A stretch of DNA of 64,000 nucleotides from Thiomonas sp. X19. Lineage in GTDB: Bacteria > Pseudomonadota > Gammaproteobacteria > Burkholderiales > Burkholderiaceae_C. The notes beneath the pieces are model-generated. The model saw only the letters and a program-made list of their open reading frames with translations. It ran no database searches and was not told the DNA's origin. Position 1 is the stretch's first letter, and every line of letters starts with the position of its first letter. The stretch is taken from positions 421,501-485,500 of the forward strand of contig NZ_LT605203.1 in the NCBI RefSeq assembly GCF_900089495.1, in the 5' to 3' direction. A program made the translations under genes and the position numbers. Shown piece after piece: positions 23,485 to 42,825 of the stretch.

Positions 23485-24381
23485 TCATGTTTTCTTGGCA
23501 TCAACTGCTGTGTAATGGTGTTGCTTGATGGCGTCGGTAAAGCGCATGCGGGTGTGGCTGGCACGCTCGATCAGACCTACATGGCGTTGAACGTCGACCC
23601 CCGGCAACGTGATCACACGCAGCGAGCGATCGGTTGCCCAGTTGACGTTGGCCAGGCGCGGAACGATCGAGACGCCGAAGCCTTGGCGCACGATTTCTAT
23701 CATCGCCTCGACCGAATTCAACTCCATCTCGTCCGACGTCGATACGTTGCAGCGGTGCAAAACCTCGTTCACCAGATGGCCGGTCCATGTGTGTCGGTCG
23801 AAGCGAATGAAGGGTGCTTGGCGAAGCATGTCCAGCGGTTCGTCTGGCAATTTGAACTGCGCGCGGCGCGGAACGATCAGCACCATGGCCTCGGTGTACA
23901 GGGGTGTCCAGCGTAGGCTGGAAGCCAGCGGGCGGGGCGACTTCGTCACCACCGCGGCGTCGAGTTCGCCGCGTTCGACGCGATCCGCGAAATCGCTTGA
24001 AAGGCCGGCCAAGATCTTGACCTTCAACCGAGGATGCTGCCGCTTGACTGCGCGCAGCGCATCGGCAAACGCTCCCATCAGCGCCGAGATCAACGCGCCG
24101 ACGACGACAGTGCCCGACAACGCATCTTGGTCGGTCTCGGCGACCAGGGAGTCGTAGAGCAGCACCAGTTGCTCGATGTGAGGCGCCATGGCCCGGCCCG
24201 CCGTGTTCAGCACGACCGAGCGCGGGCCGCGGTCAAACAGCGCCTGCTCAAGGCTTTGCTCAAGCGCTCGCATCTGCAATCCGACCGCGGCCGGGGTCAG
24301 GCCGACTTCCCTGCCTGCCGCGGTAAAGCTGCCATGACGAACGACGGCCAGAAAAGTCTTGAAGCTGCGGATCGAGGACAT
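23485..24381 (-). CDS. LysR-type transcriptional regulator
   Basis: The 298-residue protein has the LysR N-terminal winged helix (SIRSFKTFLAVVRHGSFTAAGREVGLTPAAVGLQMRALE region, residues 3-41) and a periplasmic-binding-type effector domain from about residue 90 onward. The Ser-Phe-Thr-Ala-Ala of the recognition helix and FDRGPRSVVLNTAGRA are typical. It is divergent from the Fe-S/fumarase-like operon that starts at 24576, with 194 bp between, the classical position of a LysR activator and its target. The effector is unknown; by context it would be a substrate or intermediate of that operon. Confidence 0.93.
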   Translation of the reverse strand: MSSIRSFKTFLAVVRHGSFTAAGREVGLTPAAVGLQMRALEQSLEQALFDRGPRSVVLNTAGRAMAPHIEQLVLLYDSLVAETDQDALSGTVVVGALISALMGAFADALRAVKRQHPRLKVKILAGLSSDFADRVERGELDAAVVTKSPRPLASSLRWTPLYTEAMVLIVPRRAQFKLPDEPLDMLRQAPFIRFDRHTWTGHLVNEVLHRCNVSTSDEMELNSVEAMIEIVRQGFGVSIVPRLANVNWATDRSLRVITLPGVDVQRHVGLIERASHTRMRFTDAIKQHHYTAVDAKKT

Positions 24382-24575
24382 AAGGCGGTTGCTTCGGATT
24401 GGTTTGACGTTGCGCAGTTGCCGTGGCTTTGGCGGCAGAAGCGGCTTTCACGAGCATCCATCCGCAATACTAAAGTTTTTCTTGTCCTCAACGAAACAAA
24501 GGTTCGCTTTTCTTTTTTAAGGGGGCTGGCCACAATAGTCATATTGAGACGCAGTCGCCCCATCGCTCGAACCCC
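24382..24575. promoter_or_regulatory. Divergent control region of the LysR gene and the Fe-S/fumarase operon
   Basis: The 194-bp gap is markedly more AT-rich than its flanks around 24470-24545 and holds short partial dyads such as CGAAAC with GTTCG near 24490-24515. It should contain both promoters and the LysR binding site, but no unambiguous T-N11-A site or sigma-70 pair could be fixed by eye. Confidence 0.5.
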
Positions 24576-25301
24576 ATGGCGGACAAAAATTCCCACCTTC
24601 ATGTATCGATCTGGCGTGGCAAGGAACAAGGCAGTTTCGCCAGCTACGACGTCCCGAGACTGGAAAGCCAGACCGTGCTCGACGTCGTCACCTATATTCA
24701 GCGCCAGCTCGACCCCAGCCTGAGTTATCGCTACGCCTGCCGCGTGGGCATGTGCGGCTCGTGCGCGATGAACGTCAACGGCGTGGCGCGCTGGACCTGC
24801 CGCACACATGTGGCCAAGGTCGAACGCAACGGGGCGCTGGAGATCGCCCCGTTGTCGAATTTGCCGGTGATCAAGGATCTGGTCACCGACATGCGGGAAT
24901 TTTTCGACAAATGGGCACGCTCGATGGGCCGTTTCCAGGGCAGCAGGACCCGCTCCGACGCGTTCGCGCGTGTCGATCCTGCCAGTCGCGAGCGCCGTGC
25001 CGCCGATGCCGGCATCGAGTGCATCGGCTGCGGTGTGTGCTACGCATCGTGCGACGTGGTCGGCTGGCGACCCGAGTTCCTGGGGCCGGCGGCGCTGAAC
25101 CGTGCCTGGACCCTGGTGAACGACGTCCGCGACGTACTGCGTGACGAGCGGGTGCAGGCGACCTCTGGCGACAGCGGCTGCCACGCTTGCCACACCCAGG
25201 GCTCGTGCACCCAGCGCTGCCCGAAATCGATCGCGCCGACCGCCGGCATCGCCGGGCTCAAGCGCCTCGCGCTGGGCGGCAGCTTCCTGGGCCGGCGATG
25301 A
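24576..25301 (+). CDS. Succinate dehydrogenase/fumarate reductase-type iron-sulfur subunit
   Basis: The 241-residue protein is an SdhB/FrdB homologue. The N-terminal ferredoxin domain has the 2Fe-2S cysteines C55, C60, C63 and C75 (CRVGMCGSC then C in WTC). The C-terminal domain has CIGCGVCYASC (C149, C152, C155, C159) and CHACHTQGSCTQRCPKS, supplying the remaining 3Fe-4S and 4Fe-4S ligands. All three clusters look intact. It opens a six-gene plus-strand operon in the unusual order Fe-S, two membrane subunits, fumarase alpha, fumarase beta, flavoprotein. Its stop overlaps the next start as ATGA. It is a paralogue to the housekeeping Sdh expected elsewhere; the oxidised or reduced substrate is unknown. 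Confidence 0.92.
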   Translation: MADKNSHLHVSIWRGKEQGSFASYDVPRLESQTVLDVVTYIQRQLDPSLSYRYACRVGMCGSCAMNVNGVARWTCRTHVAKVERNGALEIAPLSNLPVIKDLVTDMREFFDKWARSMGRFQGSRTRSDAFARVDPASRERRAADAGIECIGCGVCYASCDVVGWRPEFLGPAALNRAWTLVNDVRDVLRDERVQATSGDSGCHACHTQGSCTQRCPKSIAPTAGIAGLKRLALGGSFLGRR

Positions 25302-25639
25302 ACACGCGCATGCAGGTGCGGCTGTGGCTGTGGCAGCGCATCAGCGCCGCGGTGCTGGCGCCGCTGGTGCTGATCCACCTGGGCACCATCATCTACGCGG
25401 TGCACGCGGGTCTGAGCGCGGCCGCCATCCTCGGGCGACTGCACGACAACGCGTGGTTCGGCGGCTTCTACGCGCTGTTCGTGCTGGCCTGCGCGGCGCA
25501 CGTGCCCGTCGGCATGGCCCGCATCGCCGAGGAATGGCTGGCGTGGCGCGGCGCGAAGGCCATGCTGCTGGGCGGGGCTTTCGGCCTGCTGGTGCTGGTG
25601 GCCGGGCTGCGCGCGGTCTACGGCGTGGTGCTGTCATGA
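25298..25639 (+). CDS. Membrane anchor/cytochrome b-type subunit (SdhC/FrdC-like)
   Basis: The 113-residue protein has three hydrophobic helices, about residues 12-33 (AAVLAPLVLIHLGTIIYAVH), 52-74 and 84-107. His residues in the first and second helices (LIHLG and CAAHVPVG) could bind haem b. The size and the position between the Fe-S subunit and another small membrane protein identify it as one half of the quinone-reactive anchor. Sequence similarity to canonical SdhC is low. It overlaps the Fe-S gene and the next gene by 4 bp each (ATGA), so the three are probably translated together. Confidence 0.8.
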   Translation: MNTRMQVRLWLWQRISAAVLAPLVLIHLGTIIYAVHAGLSAAAILGRLHDNAWFGGFYALFVLACAAHVPVGMARIAEEWLAWRGAKAMLLGGAFGLLVLVAGLRAVYGVVLS

Positions 25640-25992
25640 AGCGCCGCAACGACTTTCGGGCCCGCAACCACCCGGCGTACTGGGCCTTCTGGCTGCACCG
25701 GGTCTCGGGCCTGCTGCTGGCGCTGTTCCTGCCGCTGCATTTCTGGGCCCTGGGCCAGGCGCTGCACGGCGCGGCCTCGCTGCAGGGTTTCCTGCGCCTG
25801 GCCGACCAGCCGCTGTTCCGCTTCGCCGAGTGGGGTCTGGTGATGCTGCTGGCGCTGCACATGACCGGCGGCATCCGCCTGCTGCTCATCGAGTTCGCCC
25901 CGTGGTCCGGCCTGCGTCAGGACTGGATCGCGGTGGCGCTGGGCGCGGCGGCCGCCGCGGGCATGGCCTTCGCGCTGGCCCTGCTCGGTTGA
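25636..25992 (+). CDS. Membrane anchor/cytochrome b-type subunit (SdhD/FrdD-like)
   Basis: The 118-residue protein has three membrane helices and the segment WAFWLHRVSGLLLALFLPLH near residues 16-35. This is close to the SdhC-type HRxSG motif, in which Ser and Arg line the quinone site. LHMTGGIRLLLIEF near 75-88 carries another haem-ligand candidate (His). With the preceding 113-residue protein it should form the b-type anchor for the Fe-S and flavoprotein subunits and pass electrons to or from quinone. The start overlaps the upstream stop as ATGA. A 34-bp gap separates it from the fumarase-like alpha gene. Confidence 0.82.
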   Translation: MKRRNDFRARNHPAYWAFWLHRVSGLLLALFLPLHFWALGQALHGAASLQGFLRLADQPLFRFAEWGLVMLLALHMTGGIRLLLIEFAPWSGLRQDWIAVALGAAAAAGMAFALALLG

Positions 25993-26026
25993 GCGCGCCC
26001 AAGCAGACCTGTCGAGGAAATCCGGC

Positions 26027-26902
26027 ATGAACATCGACCTGCAAGCCATCGAGGACACGGCGCGCGAGCTTTACATCCGCGCGCTCAAGGTGCTGCCGCC
26101 CGACATCAAACAAGGCTTTGGGCGACTCGTCGGCAGCGAAAGCGTGCCGCGCGCGCAAGGCGTGCTCAGGACCATGGTGACGAACATTGAGGTCGCTGAG
26201 CGCACCGACAACTTGCTGTGCCAGGATACAGGGGTACCGATCTACAACCTGCGCATCGGCAGCGGTGTCGAGTTCGATGGTCATGCGCTGAAGGCGGCGA
26301 TCCGGCGTGGCTGCGAGCGGGCCACGCGCGAGTACCCGTTGCGTTCGTCGGTGGTGCATCCGCTGACACGCCGCAACGAGCACACCTCCTGCGGCATCGA
26401 GGTGCCGGTGATCCACATCGATTTCGTCGATACGACGGACTTTCTTGACATCGAGATGATCCCGAAGGGCAGCGGCTCGGAAAACAACTCATTCCTGAAA
26501 ATGGCGATCCCCGCGGAGGGCCTCGACGCCATCAAGACCTTCGTCGTCGACTGCGTGATCGCCGCCGGTGGCAAGACATGTCCGCCGACCATCGTTGGCG
26601 TCGGCCTGGGCGGCACGTCGGATCTGTGCGTCGCGCTGGCCAAGCGCGCTGCCACGCGGCCGCTCGGTACCCGCTGCGACGACGTCGACGGCGCACTTCT
26701 CGAGGATGAGCTGTCGCACGCGGTCAACCAGCTCGGGGTCGGACCGCAGGGACTCGGGGGCGACTCCACCGCCTTTGCCGTGCACATCGAACTGGCGGCC
26801 ACGCACATCACGATGAACCCGGTCGCCGTGAACATGCAGTGCCATTCCGCACGCCGCGCCCGCGCCAGCTTCACCCCGGCCGGCGTTCACTACGGATTCT
26901 GA
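26027..26902 (+). CDS. Class I fumarase/tartrate dehydratase-like hydratase, alpha subunit
   Basis: The 291-residue protein matches the alpha subunit of two-subunit class I fumarases and TtdA, [4Fe-4S] hydro-lyases that add or remove water across a C4 dicarboxylate. The three cluster cysteines can be placed at C65 (LCQDTG), C185 (GGKTCPP) and C272 (NMQCHSARR). The fumarase-type KGSGSENNS lies at 147-155. The Asn-Thr-Gly-x-Asn stretch seen in FumA and TtdA reads NEHTS here (117-121), a change at a substrate-contact region that may signal a non-fumarate substrate. It sits inside a dehydrogenase operon and is followed 2 bp later by the beta subunit. Mesaconase or an unsaturated-sulfonate hydratase are alternatives. 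Confidence 0.88.
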   Translation: MNIDLQAIEDTARELYIRALKVLPPDIKQGFGRLVGSESVPRAQGVLRTMVTNIEVAERTDNLLCQDTGVPIYNLRIGSGVEFDGHALKAAIRRGCERATREYPLRSSVVHPLTRRNEHTSCGIEVPVIHIDFVDTTDFLDIEMIPKGSGSENNSFLKMAIPAEGLDAIKTFVVDCVIAAGGKTCPPTIVGVGLGGTSDLCVALAKRAATRPLGTRCDDVDGALLEDELSHAVNQLGVGPQGLGGDSTAFAVHIELAATHITMNPVAVNMQCHSARRARASFTPAGVHYGF

Positions 26903-26904
26903 CC

Positions 26905-27519
26905 ATGGCCCACCACGCACTGAACACCCCGGTCAGCGAGGCGCAGGTACGCGCGCTGCACGCGGGCGACACGGTGACCCTGCAGTCCACGCTGTTCGGC
27001 ATCCGCGATGCGACCCAGATCCACATGTTCGACCGCGGGCGCGCGACCCGCTTCGATCTGCGTGGGCACGCCGTGATCCACACCGCGCCGAACGTGCGCC
27101 GGGTCGCGGCGAGCCCCGAGTTCCCGGCGGGGTACGCGCCGGTGTGCGTTGGCACGACGACCTCGGACCGCATGGAACGCTTCACCTGGCCGCTGATGCA
27201 GCAGTATGGCGTGCGCATGATCGTCGGCAAAGGCGGCCTGCGCGCCGACTCGCTCGAGGCCTTCGCCAAACTTGGCGGCGTGTATCTGGCCATCGTCGGC
27301 GGCACGGCGGCCCTGGAGAGCACCTGGATCGAGCAGATCGAGGACGTCGACCTCGACGACCTGAACCCGGAATCGCTGTGGAAATTCCGCATCCGTGATT
27401 TCGGGCCGCTGCTCGTGGCGATGGACAGTCACGGCAACAGCCTGTACGACGACGTGAAGCACGACGTGCAGGAACGCCGCGCCCGCGTGCTGGCCGAGCT
27501 CGGCGTGAGAACGGCGTGA
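26905..27519 (+). CDS. Class I fumarase/tartrate dehydratase-like hydratase, beta subunit
   Basis: The 204-residue protein is the beta (TtdB/FumB-type swivel) subunit that completes the active site of the alpha subunit. Signature segments are TTTSDRM followed by VRMIVGKGGL (residues 100-109) and GGVYLAIVGGTAALESTWIE. The C-terminus ESLWKFRIRDFGPLLVAMDSHGNSLYDD matches the family end. The ATG at 26905 is 2 bp after the alpha stop; a longer frame from 26839 lies inside the alpha gene. The short linker to the flavoprotein gene (13 bp) supports one transcript. Which unsaturated acid it hydrates is not shown by the sequence. Confidence 0.88.
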   Translation: MAHHALNTPVSEAQVRALHAGDTVTLQSTLFGIRDATQIHMFDRGRATRFDLRGHAVIHTAPNVRRVAASPEFPAGYAPVCVGTTTSDRMERFTWPLMQQYGVRMIVGKGGLRADSLEAFAKLGGVYLAIVGGTAALESTWIEQIEDVDLDDLNPESLWKFRIRDFGPLLVAMDSHGNSLYDDVKHDVQERRARVLAELGVRTA

Positions 27520-27532
27520 GGCCAGCGCGCAC

Positions 27533-29284
27533 ATGGACTTGAAGCGGATCGACATCGATATCCTGATCCTCGGCTCGGGTGGCGCCGGGCTGTTCGCAGC
27601 GCTGCACGCGCACCAAGCCGACCCTCGACTGTCGATCACGGTCGCGGTCAAGGGCCTGCTGGGCAAGTGTGGCTGCACCCGCATGGTGCAGGGCGGCTAC
27701 AACGTTGCCCTCGCCGAGGGCGACTCGGTCGAGCGGCACTTCATGGACACCATCGAGGGAGGCAAGTGGCTGTCCAACCAGGATCTGGCCTGGACCCTGG
27801 TGACCAAGGCGGTGGAGCGCATCCACGAGCTTGAAAACGAACTCGGCTGCTTTTTCGACCGCAACCCGGACGGCACCGTGCACCAGAAGGCCTTTGCCGG
27901 GCAGACCTTCGACCGCACGGTGCACAAGGGCGACCTGACCGGGATCGAGATCATCAATCGCCTGGCCGAGCAGGTCTGGGCGCGCGGCATCGACCGGCTC
28001 GAGGAGCACCGCGCCATCGAACTCGTGCGCACGCCCGACGGCAGGGCGCTGGCTGGCGTGCTGATGATCGACATGCGCAGCGGCGGGTTCGTGTTCGTGC
28101 GCGCCGGCGCGGTGCTGCTGGCCACCGGCGGCGGGCCGACCATGTACAAGTTCAACACGCCGTCGGGCGACAAGAGCTGCGACGGCCTGGCCATGGCGCT
28201 GCGCGCCGGGCTGGCGCTGCGCGACATGGAGATGGTGCAGTTTCACCCCACCGGACTGCTGGCGGGCGCGCACACGCGCATGACAGGTACCGTGCTCGAG
28301 GAGGGGCTGCGTGGCGCCGGAGGCTGGCTGCTCAACGGCCGGGGCGAGCGCTTCATGCACAACTACGACCCGCGCGGCGAGCGCGCCACGCGCGACATCG
28401 TGTCGCGCGGCATCTTCGCCGAGATGCGTGCCGGGCGCACCTCGCCCAACGGCGGCGTGTACATCCAGATGTCCCACCTCGGCGCGGACAAGGTCAGGCA
28501 GCAGTTCAAGGGCATGGTCGAGCGCTGTGCCGACTGCGGTTTCGACTTGGCGGGCGGCAAGGTCGAGGTCGTTCCCACCGCGCACTACATGATGGGTGGC
28601 GTGGTGTTCCGCCCCGACTGCAGCACCGAACTGCACGGGTTGTTCGCCGCCGGCGAGGACACCGGCGGGGTGCATGGCGCCAACCGCCTGGGCGGCAACG
28701 GCGTGGCCAATTCGACGGTCTTCGGCGGCATCGCCGGCGAAACCATGGCGCTGTGGGTACGCGGCAACCCGGGTCGCCGCGAGCCGGATCTGGGGGCGAT
28801 CCGGCGCAGCATCGCCGCGCACGAAACCCCGTTTACGCAAAAGCCAGGTGATCTCAATGCGATTCGCGAGGCGCTATACGGCTGCATGTGGGAAGACGTC
28901 GGCATGCTGCGCGACGCGAGCGGACTGGCGCGGGCCCAGGCCCGGCTGGCCGAACTGGAAGGCGAACTGGCCGCGGTCGGCGTGGCTGACGGCGAGCGTG
29001 CCTACAACCTGAGCTGGCACGACTGGCTGAACCTGCGCAACCTGATCGCGGTCAGCCGCGTGATTGCTGCGGCGGCAGCCAGCCGGGAGAATTCGCGCGG
29101 CGCGCATTTTCGCGAGGACTTTCCGGATGCCGGCGAACTCGCCACGTCGACCTACAGCGTCGTGCGCCAGGATGGCGAGCGCGTTGCCGTGTCGCACGAC
29201 ACCGTGGTGTTCTCCCGCGTCCAACCCGGGCAGACCATCCTGGTTGACATCGGCCCGGCGCAGGCGAAGTTGGCCGCGGCGTGA
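27533..29284 (+). CDS. Fumarate reductase/succinate dehydrogenase-type flavoprotein without the flavinylation histidine
   Basis: The 583-residue protein is an SdhA/FrdA homologue. It has the FAD motif ILGSGGAGLFAALHA (12-26). Dicarboxylate-binding residues seen in FrdA are all placed: H238 in QFHPTG, E256/E257 in TVLEEGLRG, R287 in ERATRDIV, H351 in PTAHYMMGG and R385 in GANRLGGNG. The His that covalently carries FAD in SdhA/FrdA (RSHT) is replaced by Cys48 in CGCTRMVQGG, so FAD is predicted to be non-covalent. In E. coli FrdA, changing that His abolishes succinate oxidation but not fumarate reduction. The gene is last in its operon, convergent with the sulfolactate operon. The substrate may be succinate-like but not necessarily succinate. 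Confidence 0.9.
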   Translation: MDLKRIDIDILILGSGGAGLFAALHAHQADPRLSITVAVKGLLGKCGCTRMVQGGYNVALAEGDSVERHFMDTIEGGKWLSNQDLAWTLVTKAVERIHELENELGCFFDRNPDGTVHQKAFAGQTFDRTVHKGDLTGIEIINRLAEQVWARGIDRLEEHRAIELVRTPDGRALAGVLMIDMRSGGFVFVRAGAVLLATGGGPTMYKFNTPSGDKSCDGLAMALRAGLALRDMEMVQFHPTGLLAGAHTRMTGTVLEEGLRGAGGWLLNGRGERFMHNYDPRGERATRDIVSRGIFAEMRAGRTSPNGGVYIQMSHLGADKVRQQFKGMVERCADCGFDLAGGKVEVVPTAHYMMGGVVFRPDCSTELHGLFAAGEDTGGVHGANRLGGNGVANSTVFGGIAGETMALWVRGNPGRREPDLGAIRRSIAAHETPFTQKPGDLNAIREALYGCMWEDVGMLRDASGLARAQARLAELEGELAAVGVADGERAYNLSWHDWLNLRNLIAVSRVIAAAAASRENSRGAHFREDFPDAGELATSTYSVVRQDGERVAVSHDTVVFSRVQPGQTILVDIGPAQAKLAAA

Positions 29285-29395
29285 TCCCGGCAACCCGGGA
29301 CGCCATGACGCCGGCACTGGACTTTCTAGGTTGCGCGATCGACGCCGCACCCGGCCTGTTGAGCGCGCGCAGACTGTTTGCCGGGATTGGCTTGG

Positions 29396-30145
29396 CTAGA
29401 GGTTGTGCCAGATCAGACTCGTGCCGCCGGCGATCAGGATCGCCCATACTGCCTGCACGATCCGATGTGCCGGCAGCTTGCGGCTCAGGTGGCTGCCCAG
29501 GTACAGACCACCCATCACGACGGGCAGCAGGGCGAGCGCAAGTTGCAGCACATGCGGCTGTTTGTACAGTCCCACCGATGTGAAAAGGACGAGTCGCGTG
29601 AGGCCGCTGAAGAAAATCAGGGCGCTGATCGTCGCACGCAGGGCGCGCACGTCGGGCAGGCGGCGCGCCAGGTAGGCAACGTAGATGGGACCGCCCGTTC
29701 CGAACAGCGCCGTGAACAAGCCGCCGAGCAAGGCCAATGGTGCTGCCCACGCCACCGAAATTGGCCGCTGCTGCACCCGGAACACCAGGCTCCATGCCGC
29801 GTAGGCCAGAATGAAGCAGCCCAGCGTGATGAGCAGCGGTCTTTGCGGCGCGCGCACAAGCAGCGTGACGCCGATCAGCATGCCGGCGACCATGAACGGA
29901 ATGATGCGCAGCAACTCGTCGCGCGCCACGGCGCTGTGGTTGCGCAGTCCCAGCACGATGCCGGCGCTGAGGTCGAAGATCAGCATCATCGGCACCACCG
30001 ATCGCAGCGGCAGGAAATGCGTCAGCAGCGGTACCGCGGTGATCGACGAGCCGAAGCCGGTCAGACCGTAGATGGTGTAGGCCAGCGCGATGATCAGGGT
30101 CGCGCTGAGCAGCGTGACCCACGGAAACGGCAGATCGATCACCAT
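29396..30145 (-). CDS. TauE/SafE family exporter of the sulfolactate operon (candidate sulfite exporter)
   Basis: The 249-residue protein has about eight membrane helices with TauE/SafE features: an ALAYTIYGLTGFGSSITAVPLL first repeat near 18-39 and ALLGGLFTALFGTGGPIYVAYL in the second repeat. TauE-type exporters encoded beside sulfonate lyases (CuyZ, SuyZ, TauZ/TauE in other bacteria) are assigned to sulfite export. Here it is the last gene of the minus-strand operon holding suyA, suyB, slcC and comC, which would make sulfite. The ATG at 30143-30145 follows the comC stop by 100 bp. It is distinct from the TauE at 14078-14854. Function is by context. Confidence 0.85.
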   Translation of the reverse strand: MVIDLPFPWVTLLSATLIIALAYTIYGLTGFGSSITAVPLLTHFLPLRSVVPMMLIFDLSAGIVLGLRNHSAVARDELLRIIPFMVAGMLIGVTLLVRAPQRPLLITLGCFILAYAAWSLVFRVQQRPISVAWAAPLALLGGLFTALFGTGGPIYVAYLARRLPDVRALRATISALIFFSGLTRLVLFTSVGLYKQPHVLQLALALLPVVMGGLYLGSHLSRKLPAHRIVQAVWAILIAGGTSLIWHNL

Positions 30146-30245
30146 GCGCGCGCTGCCGTGGGTGGCAAGCCGAGCTTGGCCGGGCTCTCGTTGCGGTGCC
30201 GCCGGGGCATGGCCCCTCGCCTTGCGGGCCTGGGCAGCGGCCGCT

Positions 30246-31250: not shown

Positions 31251-31277
31251 GGGTGAGTGGTTTGAGATGGCGGCTGA

Positions 31278-32213
31278 TCAAGTGGCGAGGGCCTGCAGGA
31301 AATCGCCGACCTTTTCGGCGATCATCGTGCTGACGCGGGTGTTGGATTCGCGCGTGACACCGGCTACGTGCGGCGTGAGGATCAGGTTGCGAAGGCCGGC
31401 CAGCGGCGAGCCGGCGGCGAGCGGTTCGTGCTCGAATACATCGAGTGCGGCGCCGCCGAGCTGGCCGTTGCGTAGTGCCGCGGCCAGTGCCGGTTCGTCG
31501 ATCACGCCGCCGCGCGCGGTGTTCACCAGCACCGCCCCGAAGCGCATCAGCGCCAGTTTTCCGGCGTCGATCAGGTGGTGTGTCTGCGGGGTCAACGGAA
31601 CGTGCAGGCTGACGACGTCGGATTCGGCGAGCAGCGCGTCGAGTTCGCGCCGCGCCGCGCCGGTCTGCGCCCACATCGGGGAATGGAGCTCGACCATCGG
31701 GTCGTGAGCCAGCACACGCATGCCCAGCGCAACGGCCAGGCGCGCCGTGCAGCGCCCGATGTCGCCGAAGCCGACCAGACCAAGGGTCTTGCCGGCGATT
31801 TCGCGTCCTTCGGACAGGTGCGCGCGCGGCCAGGCGCCGGCGGCCACCTCGGCGCTGGACAGATAGGCGCCGCGCAGAAGCAGCATGGCCGTAGCAATCA
31901 CGTATTCGGCCACCGCCCGCGCATTGGCGCCGGAGGCGGGAATGACTTGGATGTCGCGCGCGGCACAGGCCGTCAGATCGATGTTGTCCAGCCCGACGCC
32001 GAGCCGGCCGACCACGCGCAACTGCGGCGTCGCCGCCAGCAGTTCGGCATCGACGCGGGTGCGATTGCGCACGATCAACGCGTCGGCCGCGTGCAACCGC
32101 GACAACAGCGCGGCGCGGTCGTCGACCAGCTGCGGCGCGTAGGCGACCTCGAAGCGGGTACGCAGCTTCGCAACGGCCTGCTGATCCATGAATTCGCTGA
32201 CGACGATCCTCAT
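31278..32213 (-). CDS. slcC: D-isomer 2-hydroxyacid dehydrogenase; probable (S)-sulfolactate dehydrogenase SlcC
   Basis: The 311-residue protein is a D-2-hydroxyacid dehydrogenase of the SerA type. It has the NAD-binding GKTLGLVGFGDIGRCTA near 144-160 and catalytic Arg, Glu and His in GRLGVGLDNID (substrate loop), NTARGGVIDEPALAAAL, and LTPHVAGVTRES near the end. SlcC oxidises (S)-3-sulfolactate to 3-sulfopyruvate; with ComC it forms an epimerising pair that yields (R)-sulfolactate. No C-terminal ACT domain is present, unlike long SerA. It lies between the ABC permease and comC. The specific name is inferred from operon context. Confidence 0.82.
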   Translation of the reverse strand: MRIVVSEFMDQQAVAKLRTRFEVAYAPQLVDDRAALLSRLHAADALIVRNRTRVDAELLAATPQLRVVGRLGVGLDNIDLTACAARDIQVIPASGANARAVAEYVIATAMLLLRGAYLSSAEVAAGAWPRAHLSEGREIAGKTLGLVGFGDIGRCTARLAVALGMRVLAHDPMVELHSPMWAQTGAARRELDALLAESDVVSLHVPLTPQTHHLIDAGKLALMRFGAVLVNTARGGVIDEPALAAALRNGQLGGAALDVFEHEPLAAGSPLAGLRNLILTPHVAGVTRESNTRVSTMIAEKVGDFLQALAT

Positions 32214-32258
32214 CTGGCTTGCTTCTCGATCAGGACAGGGCCAACGGTCGCGCGCTGT

Positions 32259-33137
32259 TCACGCCTGCATGCCCCACTTGCGTACGCTGTGGCGCTCGAT
32301 GGTGCGGAAAATGAGGTTTTCGACGATCAATCCGATGATGATGATGGTCAGCAGCCCGGCGAACACCTTAGAGATTTGCAAAATGTTACTGTTTTCGTAG
32401 ATATACCAACCAAGGCCACCCGAGCCGGAGCTGACGCCGAACACCAGCTCGGAGGCGATCAACGTGCGCCAGGCAAAGGCCCAGCCCACTTTCAGCCCTG
32501 TGAGAATGCTGGGGAACGCCGCTGGAATTAGGATCTTGGCGATGTACGGAAAGCCCCTGAGCCCGTAATTGCGCCCGACCATGCGCAGCGTGTTGGAAAC
32601 CGACAGAAAACCTGACTGTGTGTTCAGCGCCACCGCCCAGACCACCGAGTGCACCAGCACGAAAATCAAGCTGCCGTTGCCCAGGCCGAACCAGATCAGC
32701 GCAATCGGCAGCAGTGCGATGGCCGGCAACGGGTTGAACATCGCCGTCAAGGTCTCGAGAAAATCAGCGCCCACACGCGTGGTCACTGCAAAGGTGGTCA
32801 GCACCGCGGCGAAGGCTACGCCTAGCGTATAGCCGATAAGCAAGATCTGGAGAGAGGTCCAGATCTTGATCAAGAGTTCGCCGCTGACGATGCCCTTGAC
32901 GAAGGCGAGAATGGTCGATGAGAAAGTCGGAAACAGCAGGCTGTTGTTGATCAGGCGCGCGCCGATTTCCCATGCGATGGCCAGCAGGATGACGATGACC
33001 GTTTTGCGCACCGTGGCGCTGTTGTAGCAGGTCTCGAAGCGCGACAGAGGTTTTTCGACGACACCGAAGCTCGCCGAATCGGTGGGCTCCCGATAGATCT
33101 CGGGACGCGGCAGTTGCAGGCTGTCGCTTTCAGGCAT
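32259..33137 (-). CDS. ABC transporter permease, taurine/nitrate/sulfonate type
   Basis: The 292-residue protein has six membrane helices and the BPD_transp_1 EAA loop (NYGLRGFPYIAKILIPAAFP near 200-219). This matches SsuC/TauC-type permeases for organic sulfonates, nitrate or thiamine precursors. A roughly 50-residue cytoplasmic N-terminus precedes the first helix (TVIVILLAIAWEIGARLI). It overlaps the ATPase gene by 8 bp (33130-33137) and is followed by slcC. With the ATPase and the binding protein it should form a complete importer whose substrate is inferred to be a sulfonate from the surrounding enzymes. Confidence 0.9.
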   Translation of the reverse strand: MPESDSLQLPRPEIYREPTDSASFGVVEKPLSRFETCYNSATVRKTVIVILLAIAWEIGARLINNSLLFPTFSSTILAFVKGIVSGELLIKIWTSLQILLIGYTLGVAFAAVLTTFAVTTRVGADFLETLTAMFNPLPAIALLPIALIWFGLGNGSLIFVLVHSVVWAVALNTQSGFLSVSNTLRMVGRNYGLRGFPYIAKILIPAAFPSILTGLKVGWAFAWRTLIASELVFGVSSGSGGLGWYIYENSNILQISKVFAGLLTIIIIGLIVENLIFRTIERHSVRKWGMQA

Positions 33138-33939
33138 GCTGGGCCTCCTGGTTCATGTTCTCGCCCGCGAAGAGCAGGTCGTTGATCTTCGCTTCGAGGC
33201 GGCTGGCTTCCTCGCGGTCGGTGCTGTCGCGCGCGCGACCCTCGAGTTCGGCGCGGACCTGGCCCGGGTGTGGGGACAGCAGCAGGATGCGGTTGCCGAG
33301 TTTGATCGCCTCGGGAATCGAGTGGGTGACGAAAATGACCGTGAAATGGGTGTCATCCCACAGTTGCAGGAGTTCGTCCTGCATCTTGCGCCGGGTCAGC
33401 GCGTCGAGCGCGGCGTAGGGCTCATCCATGAGCAGCACGTCGGGTTCCATCGCCATGCCGCGAGCGATGGCCACGCGCTGTTTCATGCCTCCGGACAGCA
33501 TGTGGGGATAGTGGTTGGCGAACTTCATCAGGCCGACCATCTCCAGGTAGAACATCACCTTGTCTTCGGCCGCGCGCCCCTTCCATTTTCCGGATGACAG
33601 CAGCGGGAACATGACGTTCTGCTTGACGGTCTTCCAAGGCAGGAGTTGGTCAAACTCCTGGAAAACCATCATGCGGTCGTAGCCCGGTTTGGAGATCGCC
33701 GCCCCCTTCAGCATGATTTCCCCCTCCGAGGGCGTGAGAAACCCCCCGATGGCCTTGAGCAGGGTGGACTTGCCGCAGCCCGAAGGCCCGAGCACGATGT
33801 AGCGGTCGGACTTGTGGACCTGGAAATCGACCCTATAGGTCGCAGTTACAAGGTGGCTTTGAGTCTTGTATTGCAGCGTCACCCCCCGCACGTCCAGCAG
33901 CACCTGCGGGTTCGGACTCACCGATGGATTCATGGTCAC
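33130..33939 (-). CDS. ABC transporter ATP-binding protein, taurine/nitrate/sulfonate type
   Basis: The 269-residue protein has the usual ATPase motifs: Walker A GPSGCGKST (52-60), Q-loop in MMVFQEFDQLLPWKTVKQN, signature LSGGMKQRVAIARG (about 150-163), Walker B DVLLMDEPYAALDALTR and the switch His in VTHSIPEAIKLGNRI. The QEFDQLLPW segment is typical of the TauB/SsuB/NrtD group. The start may be the ATG at 33939 or the one six bases later. It lies between the binding-protein and permease genes, all on the minus strand. Confidence 0.93.
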   Translation of the reverse strand: MTMNPSVSPNPQVLLDVRGVTLQYKTQSHLVTATYRVDFQVHKSDRYIVLGPSGCGKSTLLKAIGGFLTPSEGEIMLKGAAISKPGYDRMMVFQEFDQLLPWKTVKQNVMFPLLSSGKWKGRAAEDKVMFYLEMVGLMKFANHYPHMLSGGMKQRVAIARGMAMEPDVLLMDEPYAALDALTRRKMQDELLQLWDDTHFTVIFVTHSIPEAIKLGNRILLLSPHPGQVRAELEGRARDSTDREEASRLEAKINDLLFAGENMNQEAQHA

Positions 33940-34008
33940 TACACAAACTCCTCAGGCACGGGAAACGCTGCCGGAATCAGTCGAAGCAAAAGCAAGCCCT
34001 GCAGCGGC

Positions 34009-35013
34009 TCAGCTGCCGGGAAGGTTGTCCACGTTCGGGAAGAACAGATCCTTCCACGACTGCGGAACAGCCTTGATAGTCCCGACTTTGTGCATGAATC
34101 GCACATATTTCATCACGTGCTGGGGCGTGGTCGTGTAGTCCATCTGCGGATTCTGTAGCATGTTCAGGATGAACCCGACCTTGTCCTTGGTGTCGTGGGT
34201 CGATTTCAGGTACTGCTCGGCAGCCCATTTCTTGTCATGGTTGATCTCGCTGATCGCCTGCCTAAGAGCGGCATAGAACGCGGCGTAGATTTTTGGGTTT
34301 TCTTTGTAAAACTTGGACGTAGTCCACACCAGGTTGAACGACGCTGGCCCGCCCAGGACTGTGTACGAGTTCAGTATCGTGTGGACATGAGGCATCGTCA
34401 GTTCCTGGTACTGGAACGGAGGCGCGCCGAAGTGCGCAGTGATTGCCCCGCTGGCCAGCGCCGCCATCGCAGCAGGGTGACTCATCGATACTGTGAGCGC
34501 GTCGAGCTTGTGTTCCTGGCCAGGGCCAAAAATTTGCTCGGCTGCCATTTGCAGTGTCACGGCTTGGATCGAGACTTTGACCGCTGGTAACCCGATCTTG
34601 TCCTTGCTCGTGAAATCCTTGATGGACTTGACATTCGGATCGGAGGTGTTTAGGTACAACGGCATGGAATTGAGCGCGGCTACACCTTTAATCCTGTAGT
34701 TGTCGCGGGTACGAGCCCAGGCAATGACCATCGGCGCCACACCGCCGGAGGCGAACTGCAGGCTATCCGACAGAAGCGCTGTGTTCATCACGTTGCCTCC
34801 AGCGAACTGCACCCACTTGACCTTTAAGTCCTTGATGCCCCGCGCGGCAGCTTGCTTCTGGATTAGGTTCTGCTCCTGCATGACGATCAGCGGCAAATAG
34901 CTGATGCCGAATTCGCGTGCAACTGATATCTCGTTAACCTCGGCGCTGGCTGTCGCAGAAGTGGCCAGCAGGACTCCGGCCAACAGAGTGGCTCCGATCA
35001 GATGCTTTTTCAT
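34009..35013 (-). CDS. ABC transporter substrate-binding protein (sulfonate/nitrate type)
   Basis: The 334-residue protein has a signal peptide (MKKHLIGATLLAGVLLATSA, cleavage near ATASAE) and a type II periplasmic-binding fold of the SsuA/TauA/ThiY group. Segments supporting this are REFGISYLPLIVMQEQNLIQ near residues 33-52, WVQFAGGNVMNTALLSDSLQFASGG near 66-90, and DKIGLPAVKVSIQAVTLQMAA. Its ligand is unknown; the operon suggests sulfolactate or a related C3 sulfonate. Known sulfolactate degraders mostly use TRAP or other importers, so the ABC type is a variation. It lies between suyB and the ATPase gene. Confidence 0.9.
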   Translation of the reverse strand: MKKHLIGATLLAGVLLATSATASAEVNEISVAREFGISYLPLIVMQEQNLIQKQAAARGIKDLKVKWVQFAGGNVMNTALLSDSLQFASGGVAPMVIAWARTRDNYRIKGVAALNSMPLYLNTSDPNVKSIKDFTSKDKIGLPAVKVSIQAVTLQMAAEQIFGPGQEHKLDALTVSMSHPAAMAALASGAITAHFGAPPFQYQELTMPHVHTILNSYTVLGGPASFNLVWTTSKFYKENPKIYAAFYAALRQAISEINHDKKWAAEQYLKSTHDTKDKVGFILNMLQNPQMDYTTTPQHVMKYVRFMHKVGTIKAVPQSWKDLFFPNVDNLPGS

Positions 35014-35180
35014 GGTGTCTCCTCATGAATGTCAGGCGATGATGTTGGGCGATGTGGTATCGCTCCCCGTTGCGCGCCTTCACAGTCCTCTGTTGCAGGC
35101 GCTGGTTAAACCCCGGCACGATGAATGGTCCGCGCCGGGCGCAACCTCCTTGTGATTGCCAGCGGCAATGATCGACACGT

Positions 35181-36356
35181 TCATGCGCTTTCGTACAGAC
35201 GGGTCAACACGAATTCACGGTGGCCCAGCGCTTCGGCCGCGGTCAGGCGTCCGTTGGCGGTGCGCAAAAGGCATTCCAGCGCCTTGTCGCCAGCCTGGTC
35301 GAGGTTGATCTCGCGCTGCAACAGCCCCGAGACATCGACGTCGATGTGCTCGTTCATCAGGCGCACCGTGCGCGGGTTGGCGCATAGCTTGATCACCGGC
35401 AAGATCGGGTTGCCGATCACGTTTCCCTGGCCCGTCGGAAAAAAATGCGCCACATAGCCCGAAGCGGCGCACAGTGTGACCATCTCGGCCGCGGCTGACG
35501 ATGAATCCATGAACCACAGCCCCGAATGGGTCGGCACCTCGGCTTTGTCGAGCACTCCGTCAACGCGGCATTGCTTGCCGATCTTCTGGATGTTGCCCAG
35601 CGCCTTTTCCTCGATCGTCGTCAGCCCGCCGGCAATATTTCCCTTGGTCGGTTGGCTATCCGACAGATCGCTCGTCTTATGCCGATTGATCATGTCCTGG
35701 TAACGGTTGAACATGAACATGAAGCGCTCGCGCACCTGATCGTTGGCGCAGCGTGCCGCCACGATGCTCTCACCGCCAGTAATCTCAGAGGTTTCGCCGA
35801 ACACCAAAGTGTTGCCCAGTTCGTAGAGCTTGTCGAAGGCGTTGCCCACGGTCGGGTTGGCGCCACAGCCCGAGGTGGTGTCGCTTTCGCCGCATTTGGT
35901 CGACACCCACAGTTCGCTCAATGGGCAGGGCTCGCGCTGTTTCTCACTGGCCCATTGCACATACCCGCGCGCGGCCTGGCTGGCGCGCTTGATGGTGTCA
36001 TGGTCGCCGTGGCCCTCGATGCCGAAGCCAACCACCGGCTTGCCCGTCGCGGCGATGCCGTCGACCACCTTCTTCGTCCAGCCGTCCTCAATGCCGATGA
36101 CCACCACGGCCGCGACGTTGGGGTTGCATCCTGTGCCGATCAGCGTGCGGAAATGCAACTCCAGGTCGGCACCGAACTGCAGGCGGCCGTATGGGTGGGG
36201 AATCGCCATCGTGCCCTTGATGTTGTGGGCCACGGCCTCGGCGGCGGCGTTGGATAGATCATCCAGGGGAAGAATGATGACATGGTTGCGTACACCCACC
36301 CGGCCGTTTTCACGGCGATAACCCAGGATCGTGGTGTCTTTGGAAATGGTTGGCAT
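35181..36356 (-). CDS. suyB: (2R)-sulfolactate sulfo-lyase, large subunit SuyB
   Basis: SuyB with SuyA splits (R)-3-sulfolactate into pyruvate and sulfite. The 391-residue protein belongs to the altronate dehydratase (UxaA C-terminal) family. It begins [20 protein letters not shown], has [18 protein letters not shown] near 75-92, and [20 protein letters not shown] near 156-175 with probable metal-binding cysteines. Its length is that expected for SuyB. The ribosome binding site AGGAAA is retained 5 bp upstream, but an IS element begins only 14 bp before the ATG, separating the gene from suyA and from its native promoter. Transcription must come through or from the IS. Altronate or galactarate dehydratase is less likely because suyA, slcC and comC are present. 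Confidence 0.88.
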
Positions 36357-36366
36357 TGGCTTTCCT

Positions 36367-37976
36367 CTAGGAGACTGTCGGACTTTGCGGTCTTCCGGAT
36401 GAAGACGCTATCCGAGACAATTGCTGCTGCACAACCGAGAGCCCGAGCCGATGAGCCGCTTCGTCCCTGTTGACCGAGACACCGCATATCTGTTGCCACC
36501 GTCGGTGGACGAATGGCTGCCCACTGATCACTTGGCGCGCTTCGTGGTCGAAGTCATCGAGCAGCTTGATCTGGGCGATCTGGCCCGACAGTACGCAGGC
36601 CGGGGCTCGGCGGCGCACCATCCGGCGGTGCTGCTGGGCCTGCTGATCTACGGCTACGCCAACGGCGTGCACTCCAGCCGCAAGATCGAGCGGGCGACCT
36701 ACGACTCGGTGGCGTTCCGCTTTGTTGCGGCCAATACCCACCCCGATCACGACACGCTGGCGACGTTCCGCCGCCGCTTCTTGAAGGAGGTGGAGGCACT
36801 GTTCGTGCAGGTGCTGGTTCTGGCGCGCGAGATGAAGCTGCTCAAGCTCGGACACATCGCGCTGGATGGCACCAAGATCGACGCCAACGCCAGCAAGCAC
36901 AAGGCCTTGTCGTGGGCTCATGCCAACAAGATCGAGGCGCAGCTGCGCCAGGAAGTACAAACGCTGCTGGCGCTGGCAGAGAACAGCGACCGCGCGACGG
37001 TACCCGACGGCATGGATGTGCCGGCGGAGATCGCCCTGCGTGCAGATCGCTTGAGCGCAATCGCGCAGGCCAAGGCCAAGATCGAGCAGCGCGCCAGCGA
37101 ACGCCATCAGGTCGAGCAGCAGGAGTACGAGGCCAAGACCGCCAAGCGCCAAGCCCAGCGCGAGGCGGGCAAGAAGCCGCGCGGCAAGGACCCTGAGCCG
37201 CCAGAGGCCGGCCCCCGGAGCAGCGATCAGGTCAACCTCACGGATGAAGAGTCGCGCATCATGCCCGTGTCGGGTGGGGGCTTCGAGCAAAGCTACAACG
37301 CACAAGCCGGCGTGGACATCGCGACGATGATGGTGATCACCCAGCATGTGAGCCAGGCATCCAACGACAAGCGCGAAGTTGTGCCTACGCTGCAGCAGAT
37401 CCAAGCGTTACCCGCGGTGCTGGGCGAGGTGCACACGCTCATCACGGACAACGGCTTCTTCAGCCAAGCCAACGTGATCGCGTGCAACGACGCGGGTATC
37501 GAGCCGCTGCTGGCGCTCAAGCGGGAGTCGCATCACACGCCGGTGATGGGGCGCTTTGCACCCGATGTGCCCGAGCCCCAGACGACGGATCCGCTCGTGC
37601 AGATGGCACACCGCCTGGGCACGCAAGCAGGCCGAGCCCTGTACGGCCTGCGCAAGCAGACAGTGGAGCCGGTGTTCGGCATCATCAAGCAAGTGATGGG
37701 TTGGCGCCAGATGAGCATGCGCGGGCTGGCCAAGGCACAAGGCGAATGGAGCTTGGTGACCATGGCTTGGAACATCAAGCGCATGCACGTCCTGCGAGCC
37801 GCGTGAGGGCAATAGTGCGCCCCGACCACGCCAAAACCGAGTCCCCAGGCCGCCCCATGTGCCCTCACAGTGTCTCGCCAACCATCGAGAGCGTTCGATC
37901 AGCGCGCCGCTGTCAAAAAAAACGCGTCGCACTGATCAATCGGATTCGCTCGGGTTCAAGTCCGACAGCCTCCTAG
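36367..37976. mobile_element. IS1182-type insertion sequence between suyA and suyB
   Basis: The element spans 36371-37972 (1602 bp) and is flanked on both sides by CTAG (36367-36370 and 37973-37976), a likely 4-bp target duplication. Terminal inverted repeats are GAGACTGTCGGACTT on the left and, reading inward, GAGGCTGTCGGACTT on the right, with one mismatch. It carries one intact transposase gene on the plus strand, opposite to the suy operon. Intact ends and gene suggest a recent insertion. Right-end sequence 37910-37922 has a run of eight A. Confidence 0.9.
36451..37806 (+). CDS. IS1182 family transposase
   Basis: The protein has 451 residues from the ATG at 36451; a TTG start ten codons earlier is possible. 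It has the N-terminal Tnp_DUF772 domain (DEWLPTDHLARFVVEVIE near residues 14-31 and LGLLIYGYANGVHSSRKIE) and a DDE catalytic domain. Candidate catalytic residues are Asp in IALDGTKIDANASKHKAL, Asp in TLITDNGFFSQANV and Glu in VEPVFGIIKQVMGWRQMSMRG. A charged, coiled-coil-like insertion (KIEQRASERHQVEQQ, then Lys/Arg-rich) separates the first two. The open frame is intact, so the element may still move. Confidence 0.92.
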   Translation: MSRFVPVDRDTAYLLPPSVDEWLPTDHLARFVVEVIEQLDLGDLARQYAGRGSAAHHPAVLLGLLIYGYANGVHSSRKIERATYDSVAFRFVAANTHPDHDTLATFRRRFLKEVEALFVQVLVLAREMKLLKLGHIALDGTKIDANASKHKALSWAHANKIEAQLRQEVQTLLALAENSDRATVPDGMDVPAEIALRADRLSAIAQAKAKIEQRASERHQVEQQEYEAKTAKRQAQREAGKKPRGKDPEPPEAGPRSSDQVNLTDEESRIMPVSGGGFEQSYNAQAGVDIATMMVITQHVSQASNDKREVVPTLQQIQALPAVLGEVHTLITDNGFFSQANVIACNDAGIEPLLALKRESHHTPVMGRFAPDVPEPQTTDPLVQMAHRLGTQAGRALYGLRKQTVEPVFGIIKQVMGWRQMSMRGLAKAQGEWSLVTMAWNIKRMHVLRAA

Positions 37977-38097
37977 GGCTTGTCAGAAGTTCCGGGAGCG
38001 TCGAACGGATTGGCGCAATGTGCCGGCAGCGGGGCTATCCCATGCTGTGCCCGGGCCGGCGCGCAAGTCGACGCGGCATGGCGCACATGACGGCTGC

Positions 38098-38379
38098 TTA
38101 CCAGCGCTTGGTCTTGATGTTGTGGACATGCGCGTGCTCGCCGGCATGGATCGGGGCGACGACCTTGCCGATATCGACGGCGTATTTCCAGACGGTGTCG
38201 CCAACGGCCATGTCCTTGAGCGCGACCTTGTGGCCGATCGGGATGTCTTGCGCCGCCTTGACGCCGGTCATGCGGTCTTCATCCATGATCCAGCCATTGA
38301 GTTCCATGCCTGCCTTGACGCCCTCAACGACGACGACGGCAACGGAATCCTTGGAATCGTGCAGTACGAAGTGAATCAT
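38098..38379 (-). CDS. suyA: (2R)-sulfolactate sulfo-lyase, small subunit SuyA
   Basis: The 93-residue protein is the SAF-type small subunit matching the N-terminal part of altronate dehydratase. It begins MIHFVLHDSKDSVAVVVVEG and contains AAQDIPIGHKVALKDMAVGD (42-61), a typical SAF turn, and ends IHAGEHAHVHNIKTKRW; the HAHVHN segment is shared with UxaA. It has a strong AAGGAG site upstream. It is the first gene of the minus-strand sulfolactate operon, divergent from the GntR regulator, but is now separated from suyB by an IS element. Without the IS the original suyA-suyB gap would have been about 135 bp. Confidence 0.88.
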   Translation of the reverse strand: MIHFVLHDSKDSVAVVVVEGVKAGMELNGWIMDEDRMTGVKAAQDIPIGHKVALKDMAVGDTVWKYAVDIGKVVAPIHAGEHAHVHNIKTKRW

Positions 38380-42818: not shown

Positions 42819-42825
42819 GGACGCC

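Follow-up and report, generated by a model that had tools for sequence, protein, structure and literature searches.

A putative 3-sulfopropanoate dehydrogenase and 3-sulfoacrylate hydratase operon beside the sulfolactate genes of Thiomonas sp. X19

Bacteria that use homotaurine excrete 3-sulfopropanoate, the sulfonate analogue of succinate. The accessible text of PMC11489063 reports that Enterococcus gilvus makes the same compound from 2,3-dihydroxypropane-1-sulfonate (DHPS) derived from sulfoquinovose, and that similar genes occur in other Firmicutes. The same text presents the bacterial degradation of 3-sulfopropanoate as unreported, apart from a thesis that it cites, in which Roseovarius nubinhibens ISM degrades homotaurine via 3-sulfopropanoate, sulfoacrylate and sulfolactate. 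A 2026 review, in the part consulted, describes the 3-sulfopropanoate mechanism in Bilophila as unclear (PMC12890257). Sulfolactate itself is known to be cleaved by SuyAB, which splits the (R)-enantiomer into pyruvate and sulfite (excerpt of PMC12421959), and the cluster hpsRNOUPsuyAB of Cupriavidus pinatubonensis has been described (excerpt of PMC11382572). Here, we analyzed a stretch of 64,000 nucleotides of Thiomonas sp. X19 (the window; contig NZ_LT605203.1, positions 421,501 to 485,500, from a genome of 4.67 Mb in 3 contigs), in which an operon for a succinate dehydrogenase-like complex with an embedded fumarase-like hydratase (24576-29284) faces a set of sulfolactate genes. Judging from its sequence and its relatives, we give a probability of about 0.7 to the reading that this operon encodes a quinone-linked 3-sulfopropanoate dehydrogenase and a 3-sulfoacrylate hydratase, which would feed (R)-sulfolactate to SuyAB.

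The operon runs from the Fe-S subunit through two anchors and a two-subunit Fe-S hydratase to the flavoprotein, with a divergent gene for a LysR-type regulator. It converges on genes that all lie on the minus strand: tauE, comC, slcC, those of an ATP-binding cassette (ABC) importer, suyB, and suyA (Table 1). The original prediction of a LysR-flanked operon converging on sulfolactate genes was borne out by domain and model scans, which gave the expected families. Both suyA and suyB, which it had also listed, are present, but they are not adjacent, being separated by an insertion sequence that had been missed. To this description we add that there are two separate anchors (both Sdh_cyt), and that the position of FrdA Thr244 is occupied by Glu in the flavoprotein. 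A terminator scan found no terminators between the two convergent operons.

The sulfolactate arm shares four genes, plus tauE, with the described mineralization of sulfolactate by SlcC/ComC and SuyAB. Its SuyB is 84% identical, over 100% of its length, to the product of a UxaA-family gene at the place of suyB in the hpsN-hpsO cluster on the plasmid of C. pinatubonensis HN-2, a cluster that agrees with the published hpsRNOUPsuyAB as given in the excerpt of PMC11382572. The described systems, as far as the excerpts go, are fed with DHPS (through HpsNOP) and sulfolactaldehyde, whereas the window has the dehydrogenase/hydratase module. SuyA gave no match in Pfam. For the ComC-like protein, the L-sulfolactate dehydrogenase 2x06 came second in the list of PDB matches, and we call it only ComC-like since it falls below the cut-off of the ComC model. 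The SlcC-like protein has generic PGDH matches, and its neighbors are the ComC-like and suyAB genes. Both assignments derive from relationship and neighborhood and not from a curated cut-off, and should be taken as putative.

The original prediction would have been refuted if related genomes had shown no co-occurrence of the module with suyAB; the two do co-occur, in gene orders that vary, in Proteobacteria, in one actinobacterium, and in two haloarchaea. We analyzed the flavoprotein neighborhoods in the best 80 of at least 589 relative-encoding stretches (590 candidates). Among these 80 loci, 44 have suyA or suyB, 56 have at least one of suyA, suyB, slcC, and comC, and 47 have at least two; when at least 9 kb were available on both sides, at least one of the four was present in 34 out of 42 loci. 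The position of suyB relative to the flavoprotein gene varies: both genes have the same strand in 35 cases, with suyB upstream in 23 of them and downstream in 12, and in 7 more suyB is downstream on the opposite strand. The stretches of 36 loci lack suyA and suyB, and 25 of the 28 genomes checked among these encode SuyB elsewhere, with 69-89% identity; the check also took in the genome of L069, whose stretch does have suyA or suyB. In an evenly drawn, order-wide sample of 300 genomes, the flavoprotein was found in 38, SuyB in 50, and both in 36, leaving 14 with SuyB alone. Hence, SuyB is present in 36/38 genomes with the flavoprotein and in 14/262 of the others (Fisher p 1.3e-32, uncorrected for kinship). 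The two genes share a contig in 29 of the 36 genomes and lie within 20 kb of each other in 28; in one genome (G095) they are 1.9 Mb apart. This asymmetry, in which the flavoprotein rarely occurs without SuyB while SuyB occurs alone in 14 genomes, is what would be expected of an optional upstream module feeding sulfolactate. The frequency of co-occurrence and the varying gene order led us to reject a chance adjacency, and we regard the link of the module with sulfolactate desulfonation as well supported by these comparisons. The flavoprotein is rare at larger scale, being found in 14 of 397 genomes of a phylum-wide sample.

In the pathway that we propose, the ABC system would import the sulfonate, and a membrane-bound enzyme of the complex II type would oxidize 3-sulfopropanoate to 3-sulfoacrylate, passing the electrons to quinone. 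The class I fumarase-type Fe-S hydratase would add water to 3-sulfoacrylate to give 3-sulfolactate. If it kept the facial selectivity by which fumarase makes L-malate, the inverted Cahn-Ingold-Prelog order of the sulfonate would make the product (R)-3-sulfolactate. SuyAB would split this into pyruvate and sulfite, SlcC and ComC would convert the other enantiomer, and TauE would export the sulfite. The reasoning runs backwards from the sulfolactate genes: if SuyAB takes sulfolactate, the hydratase would need sulfoacrylate and the dehydrogenase would in turn need 3-sulfopropanoate. In this manner we infer the substrates, the direction, the stereochemistry, and the electron acceptor. The route into SuyAB had been put forward in the original prediction, and it gains support from the co-occurrence, from the varying gene order, and from the presence in the genome of an own sdhCDAB and FumC. 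The same prediction knew of no established pathway with this gene set. The route as such is known from the thesis on R. nubinhibens, whose proposed intermediates, according to the description in the accessible text of PMC11489063 (a comparison of intermediates), are the same as ours; what stands is that our search of open-licence literature found no paper naming the genes for the conversion of 3-sulfopropanoate to sulfolactate.

The operon has the composition of a complex II, with a flavoprotein made of FAD_binding_2 and the C-terminal domain, an Fe-S subunit, and Sdh_cyt anchors, as in SdhABCD, FrdABCD, and TfrAB. Alignment with E. coli FrdA (1kf6 and 2b76) shows that the window flavoprotein has counterparts of FrdA R287, H355, R390, H232, and E245, the first three being conserved across the family. 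We take His355, H232, and E245 to be functional residues of FrdA, and Thr244 to be a contact of the substrate carboxylate; no open-licence paper on the role of Thr244 was found. In the excerpt of PMC9557727, R287 is the catalytic Arg and R390 an Arg of the flavin and substrate site. The family differs from the known enzymes by the hydratase within the operon, by the suyAB genes nearby, and by two replacements: Cys for His44, which links the flavin adenine dinucleotide (FAD), and Glu for Thr244. Both replacements are found in 106/106 family rows, among them those of haloarchaea and Rhodococcus, but in 0/2 paralogues from the same genome. The comparison set for this pair of residues is small (the two paralogues and three aligned PDB sequences), and the protein database matches listed are all at least 80% identical to the query, with no outgroups among them. 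The idea that the change at the flavin site is peculiar to this window was rejected, the change being family-wide. For none of the 25 flavoprotein models shown does the flavoprotein reach the cut-off (e.g., TIGR01812, 426.8 versus 567 bits; TIGR01816, 328.4 versus 727; PRK06263, 501.7 versus 718), and its best NCBIfam score is with the fumarate reductase TfrA. The SdhA of the same genome passes both TIGR01812 and TIGR01816; it is encoded in a separate sdhCDAB operon where SdhA (939 bits, cut-off 727), SdhC, SdhD, and SdhB all exceed curated cut-offs, as does a FumC elsewhere in the genome.

The hydratase of the window, which we call type a, has the alpha and beta domains of a class I Fe-S fumarase, with cysteines at the places of what are presumably the Fe-S cluster ligands. 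It shares Fumerase and Fumerase_C, these cysteines, and the KGG and TTSxRM motifs with the two-subunit class I fumarases and tartrate dehydratases (7xky, TtdAB). It differs from them in a stretch corresponding to H-x-A-S-x-P, which is altered, and in having CHSARR in place of the C-x-A-D-R of three solved relatives. The latter is the change in the substrate region that the original prediction had noticed; of the 68 type-a alpha rows, 65 have CHSARR.

Relatives of the flavoprotein with 47-73% identity are encoded on plasmids of Methylobacterium, Paracoccus, Sulfitobacter, Cupriavidus, Pseudomonas, Rhodococcus, and haloarchaea. A plasmid of Methylobacterium oryzae has in one block genes for a binding protein, the Fe-S subunit, anchors, hydratase, flavoprotein, an enzyme dependent on thiamine pyrophosphate (TPP), TauE, SuyAB, a symporter, SlcC- and ComC-like proteins, and GntR, together with a molybdopterin-dependent oxidoreductase and a sulfate exporter. 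In Rhodococcus jostii RHA1, the flavoprotein (54%) and a type-a hydratase (47% and 51%) are encoded 15-20 kb from suyAB and slcC- and comC-like genes, the whole set lying within ~25 kb. A plasmid of Paracoccus pantotrophus encodes a partial relative of the flavoprotein (66% of the query, 61% identity), and strain NKNCYSA of this species is reported to use homotaurine and sulfolactate in the excerpt of PMC12421959. Some metagenome bins titled Bordetella parapertussis (L047, L078, L082) also carry the module; their flavoproteins group with those of betaproteobacterial bins, and the titles are doubtful.

Both of the haloarchaeal plasmids examined (2/2) have the flavoprotein and Fe-S genes beside suyAB (SuyB with 35-36% identity) and TauE, and the neighboring Ldh in Haloarcula is ComC-like (340 bits, cut-off 500). 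The place of the class I hydratase is taken by a gene resembling argininosuccinate lyase. The presence of an unrelated family at this place suggests that the shared need is an addition or elimination step on an unsaturated acid. Bacterial coenzyme M synthesis by the Xcb enzymes passes through sulfoacrylate and employs XcbC and XcbD, of the argininosuccinate/fumarase superfamily. The haloarchaeal lyase matches ArgH (323 bits, over the cut-off) and, after the ArgH-type models, XcbC (257 bits, under the cut-off of 575), a likeness judged by scores and not by a tree. Coenzyme M synthesis differs in being biosynthetic and in having no dehydrogenase.

Many Proteobacteria outside the type-a clade have the same flavoprotein with another hydratase (type b), 34-38% identical to that of the window and usually encoded right after the flavoprotein gene. 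The Asp of C-x-A-D-R is found in 0/9 type-b alpha rows. In a quick tree, where L087, L002, and L003 have unsure positions and certain joins are likewise flagged as unsure, type b forms a basal grade requiring 2 changes, whereas type a, comprising the window clade and Rhodococcus, requires 11 because rows without a hydratase in their stretch fall inside it. Type-b genomes vary in their association with SuyB: 8/12 have no SuyB above 34% identity and the other 4 have one of at least 65%, which counts against our reading. Of two further genomes, one has a SuyB of 71% (L067) and the other a match of only 40% (L083), and on a plasmid of Paracoccus versutus suyB lies ~21 kb from a type-b module. The 8 genomes lacking SuyB all have Xsc (8/8), and 7/8 have a sulfopyruvate decarboxylase beta subunit over the cut-off (beta alone was scored), whose gene lies ~3 kb from the flavoprotein gene in G374. 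Hence, sulfolactate could still be the hub in these genomes, by way of sulfopyruvate, which weakens the idea that the lack of SuyB means a direct sulfite release by type b in every case. The sole genome of the 8 without both SuyB and the decarboxylase beta subunit is G657, where, as in Pseudomonas MPC6, a gene for a coenzyme A-acylating (methyl)malonate-semialdehyde dehydrogenase directly follows that of the type-b hydratase. Dehydrogenases of this type (at least 50% identity) are encoded near 4/21 type-b loci (L090:19334-20824, L113, L110, L089). Such loci hint at a direct release of sulfite giving malonate semialdehyde, which would fit the adjacent semialdehyde dehydrogenase. In L086, L089, L110, L112, and L123, the gene after that of the type-b hydratase is of the Amidohydro_2 type (the L086 protein was scanned against Pfam).

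The flavin site bears on the direction of the reaction. In known enzymes, the covalent attachment of FAD increases the potential of the flavin and is required for succinate oxidation, and complex II enzymes without the FAD-linking His cannot oxidize succinate (excerpts of PMC10238741 and PMC2680327). This His is absent in all 106 family flavoproteins examined. The family should then be poor at oxidizing succinate, unless the Cys binds the flavin. We see this as the main point against an oxidation of 3-sulfopropanoate, which would need either a Cys-bound FAD or a couple that is easier to oxidize. The original prediction took the changed flavin site as fitting a specialized substrate: the change itself is real, and the effect of losing the His in known complex II speaks in part against oxidation. 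It is also the basis of the opposite reading, in which sulfolactate would be dehydrated to sulfoacrylate and the flavoprotein would reduce the latter to 3-sulfopropanoate as an electron sink, as in fumarate respiration; the best-scoring NCBIfam model of the flavoprotein, TfrA, points the same way in spite of being below its cut-off. We consider this reversal improbable, since SuyAB would use up the same sulfolactate, a sulfonate-type importer and a TauE exporter adjoin the genes, and sulfite-oxidizing enzymes are annotated near type-b relatives. Furthermore, many of the hosts are aerobes that probably use ubiquinone, which would be too positive for such a reduction.

Several other observations weigh against 3-sulfopropanoate oxidation feeding SuyAB, and some of them favor other substrates. 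It is not obvious how a Glu in place of Thr244 would bind an anionic sulfonate, the hydratase alpha subunit exceeds a fumarate hydratase cut-off (PRK06246), and a few flavoprotein genomes lack a convincing SuyB: in the 80-locus set the best match is 40% in the genome of L083 and there is none in those of L070 and L073, and in the order-wide sample G196 and G254 have no match. Genome G652 (rated 100% complete, 50 contigs) has the flavoprotein and the type-a hydratase, SuyB matches of at most 36% identity, and neither ComE nor Xsc over the cut-off; it may have another way to break down sulfolactate, or the module may have another function there. The membership of all parts in the succinate dehydrogenase and fumarase families, together with the PRK06246 score, would also suit an ordinary metabolism of C4 or methyl-C4 acids (succinate and fumarate, or methylsuccinate and mesaconate) that merely happens to lie near sulfolactate genes. 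This seems very unlikely to us given the co-occurrence with SuyB in varying order, the unrelated lyase-like gene replacing the hydratase beside suyAB in two haloarchaea, and the replacement of Thr244 throughout the family; the separate sdhCDAB and FumC of the genome count against it as well and make a duplicate of the tricarboxylic acid cycle enzymes unlikely. Sulfosuccinate is another improbable substrate. It would give sulfofumarate and then sulfomalate, or oxaloacetate and sulfite if water added at the sulfonated carbon, and it would account for the TctC tricarboxylate-type binding proteins in 40/80 loci, for the TctABC sets in type-b loci, and for a pocket that may admit a bulkier acid. 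But neither product reaches SlcC, ComC, and SuyAB without an extra decarboxylation, for which the TPP enzyme could serve in principle but is not in the window operon, and a direct release of sulfite would make the tight link with SuyB needless.

The TPP enzyme is a recurrent neighbor that 3-sulfopropanoate oxidation leaves without explanation. It is encoded in 33/107 loci searched (e.g., L059:2696-4348), of which 27 have the type-a hydratase and 6 have type b, and is of the acetolactate synthase/2-hydroxyacyl-CoA lyase kind; the representatives of the two types are 47% identical, and the two that were scanned pass no cut-off shown. This recurrence with both hydratase types, and an aminotransferase near the enzyme in Sulfitobacter THAF37, could indicate that another sulfonate joins at sulfolactate, such as a C4-C5 sulfo-acid on which the TPP enzyme would act first. 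We give this little credence, since the gene is lacking in the window operon and in 47/74 type-a stretches (some of them short), and since the dehydrogenase and the hydratase alone would suffice to turn 3-sulfopropanoate into sulfolactate. The annotated recurrent neighbor families (some recurrent clusters were left unannotated) include no homotaurine transaminase with sulfopropanal dehydrogenase, which would have suited our reading of 3-sulfopropanoate as the substrate.

A broader proposal, towards which we lean less firmly, is that the flavoproteins with Cys at the FAD position and Glu at FrdA 244 form an undescribed branch of complex II acting as respiratory 3-sulfopropanoate:quinone oxidoreductases in Proteobacteria, Actinomycetota, and haloarchaea. 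They would be served by three interchangeable hydratases (type a, leading to sulfolactate and SuyAB, the haloarchaeal member of the lyase superfamily, and type b), and in some type-b loci, such as that of Pseudomonas MPC6, hydration may take place at the sulfonated carbon and directly yield sulfite and malonate semialdehyde. If true, these would be genes for the aerobic use of 3-sulfopropanoate and a case of complex II recruited to sulfonates. The Cys/Glu pair may then help to locate such genes in metagenomes, and entries labelled succinate dehydrogenase, fumarate reductase, L-aspartate oxidase, or fumarate hydratase could be renamed.

Table 1. Features of the dehydrogenase/hydratase operon and of the sulfolactate genes in the window (positions in the 64,000-nucleotide stretch)
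Feature	Positions	Strand	Basis
LysR-type regulator, divergent from dehydrogenase operon	23485..24381	-	HTH_1 and LysR_substrate
Fe-S subunit, SdhB/FrdB-like	24576..25301	+	TIGR00384 192 bits, cut-off 88; Fer2_3, Fer4_8
Membrane anchor 1	25298..25639	+	Sdh_cyt 26.7 bits, cut-off 25.8
Membrane anchor 2, cytochrome b type	25636..25992	+	Sdh_cyt 46 bits
Fe-S hydratase alpha, proposed 3-sulfoacrylate hydratase	26027..26902	+	Fumerase 288 bits; PRK06246 296 bits, cut-off 276; CHSARR
Fe-S hydratase beta	26905..27519	+	Fumerase_C; TIGR00723 137.9 bits, below cut-off 145.15; aligns with fumarate hydratase chain 7xky_B (reading frame scanned from upstream start, 26839)
Flavoprotein, SdhA/FrdA-like, proposed catalytic subunit of 3-sulfopropanoate dehydrogenase	27533..29284	+	FAD_binding_2 and Succ_DH_flav_C; alignments
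TauE-family sulfite/sulfonate exporter, start codon approximate	29396..30235	-	TauE 101 bits
ComC-like sulfolactate dehydrogenase	30246..31250	-	Ldh_2 337 bits; NF040650 209.9 bits, cut-off 500
SlcC-like 2-hydroxyacid dehydrogenase	31278..32213	-	2-Hacid_dh_C 197 bits
ABC importer permease	32259..33137	-	BPD_transp_1; SaoP, SsuC, TauC models below cut-offs
ABC importer ATPase	33130..33939	-	ABC_tran; best model taurine ATPase, below cut-off
ABC importer solute-binding protein	34009..35013	-	NMT1_2; SsuA family 54 bits, below cut-off
SuyB, sulfolactate sulfo-lyase large subunit	35181..36356	-	GD_AH_C, UxaA family; 84% identity to C. pinatubonensis counterpart
Insertion sequence	36367..37976	+	19-bp inverted repeats; DDE_Tnp_1 transposase 36421-37806
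SuyA, sulfolactate sulfo-lyase small subunit	38098..38379	-	Match to altronate hydrolase domain 3k3s, E 1.5e-10; adjoins suyB in relatives
GntR/UTRA regulator, divergent from suyA	38561..39313	+	GntR and UTRA

Inverted repeats (36367-36385 and 37958-37976) bound the insertion sequence between suyB and suyA. Counting that of the window, at least 35 full-length copies of this element, all 100% identical, are present in the genome, as judged from 40 of 163 candidates scored. The two suy genes are adjacent in relatives sharing the layout (L009, L015, L028). The reading frame of suyB is intact despite the insertion; its transcription may be affected by the position of the element, which may have cut suyB off from its promoter and so impaired its expression in this strain.

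Both regulators are recurrent members of the cluster. The LysR gene is found in 26/80 loci, often directly upstream of the Fe-S gene and elsewhere in others, and the GntR/UTRA gene in 31/80, mostly next to suyA. A sulfatase-family gene lies inside the module in 9/80 loci (e.g., L055:5842-7251). Finally, the large and swivel subunits of an aconitase X are encoded at 41577-43260 of the window, 12 kb from the flavoprotein gene, and L092 and L067 likewise encode aconitase X relatives (42-47% identity) close to their type-b flavoproteins.

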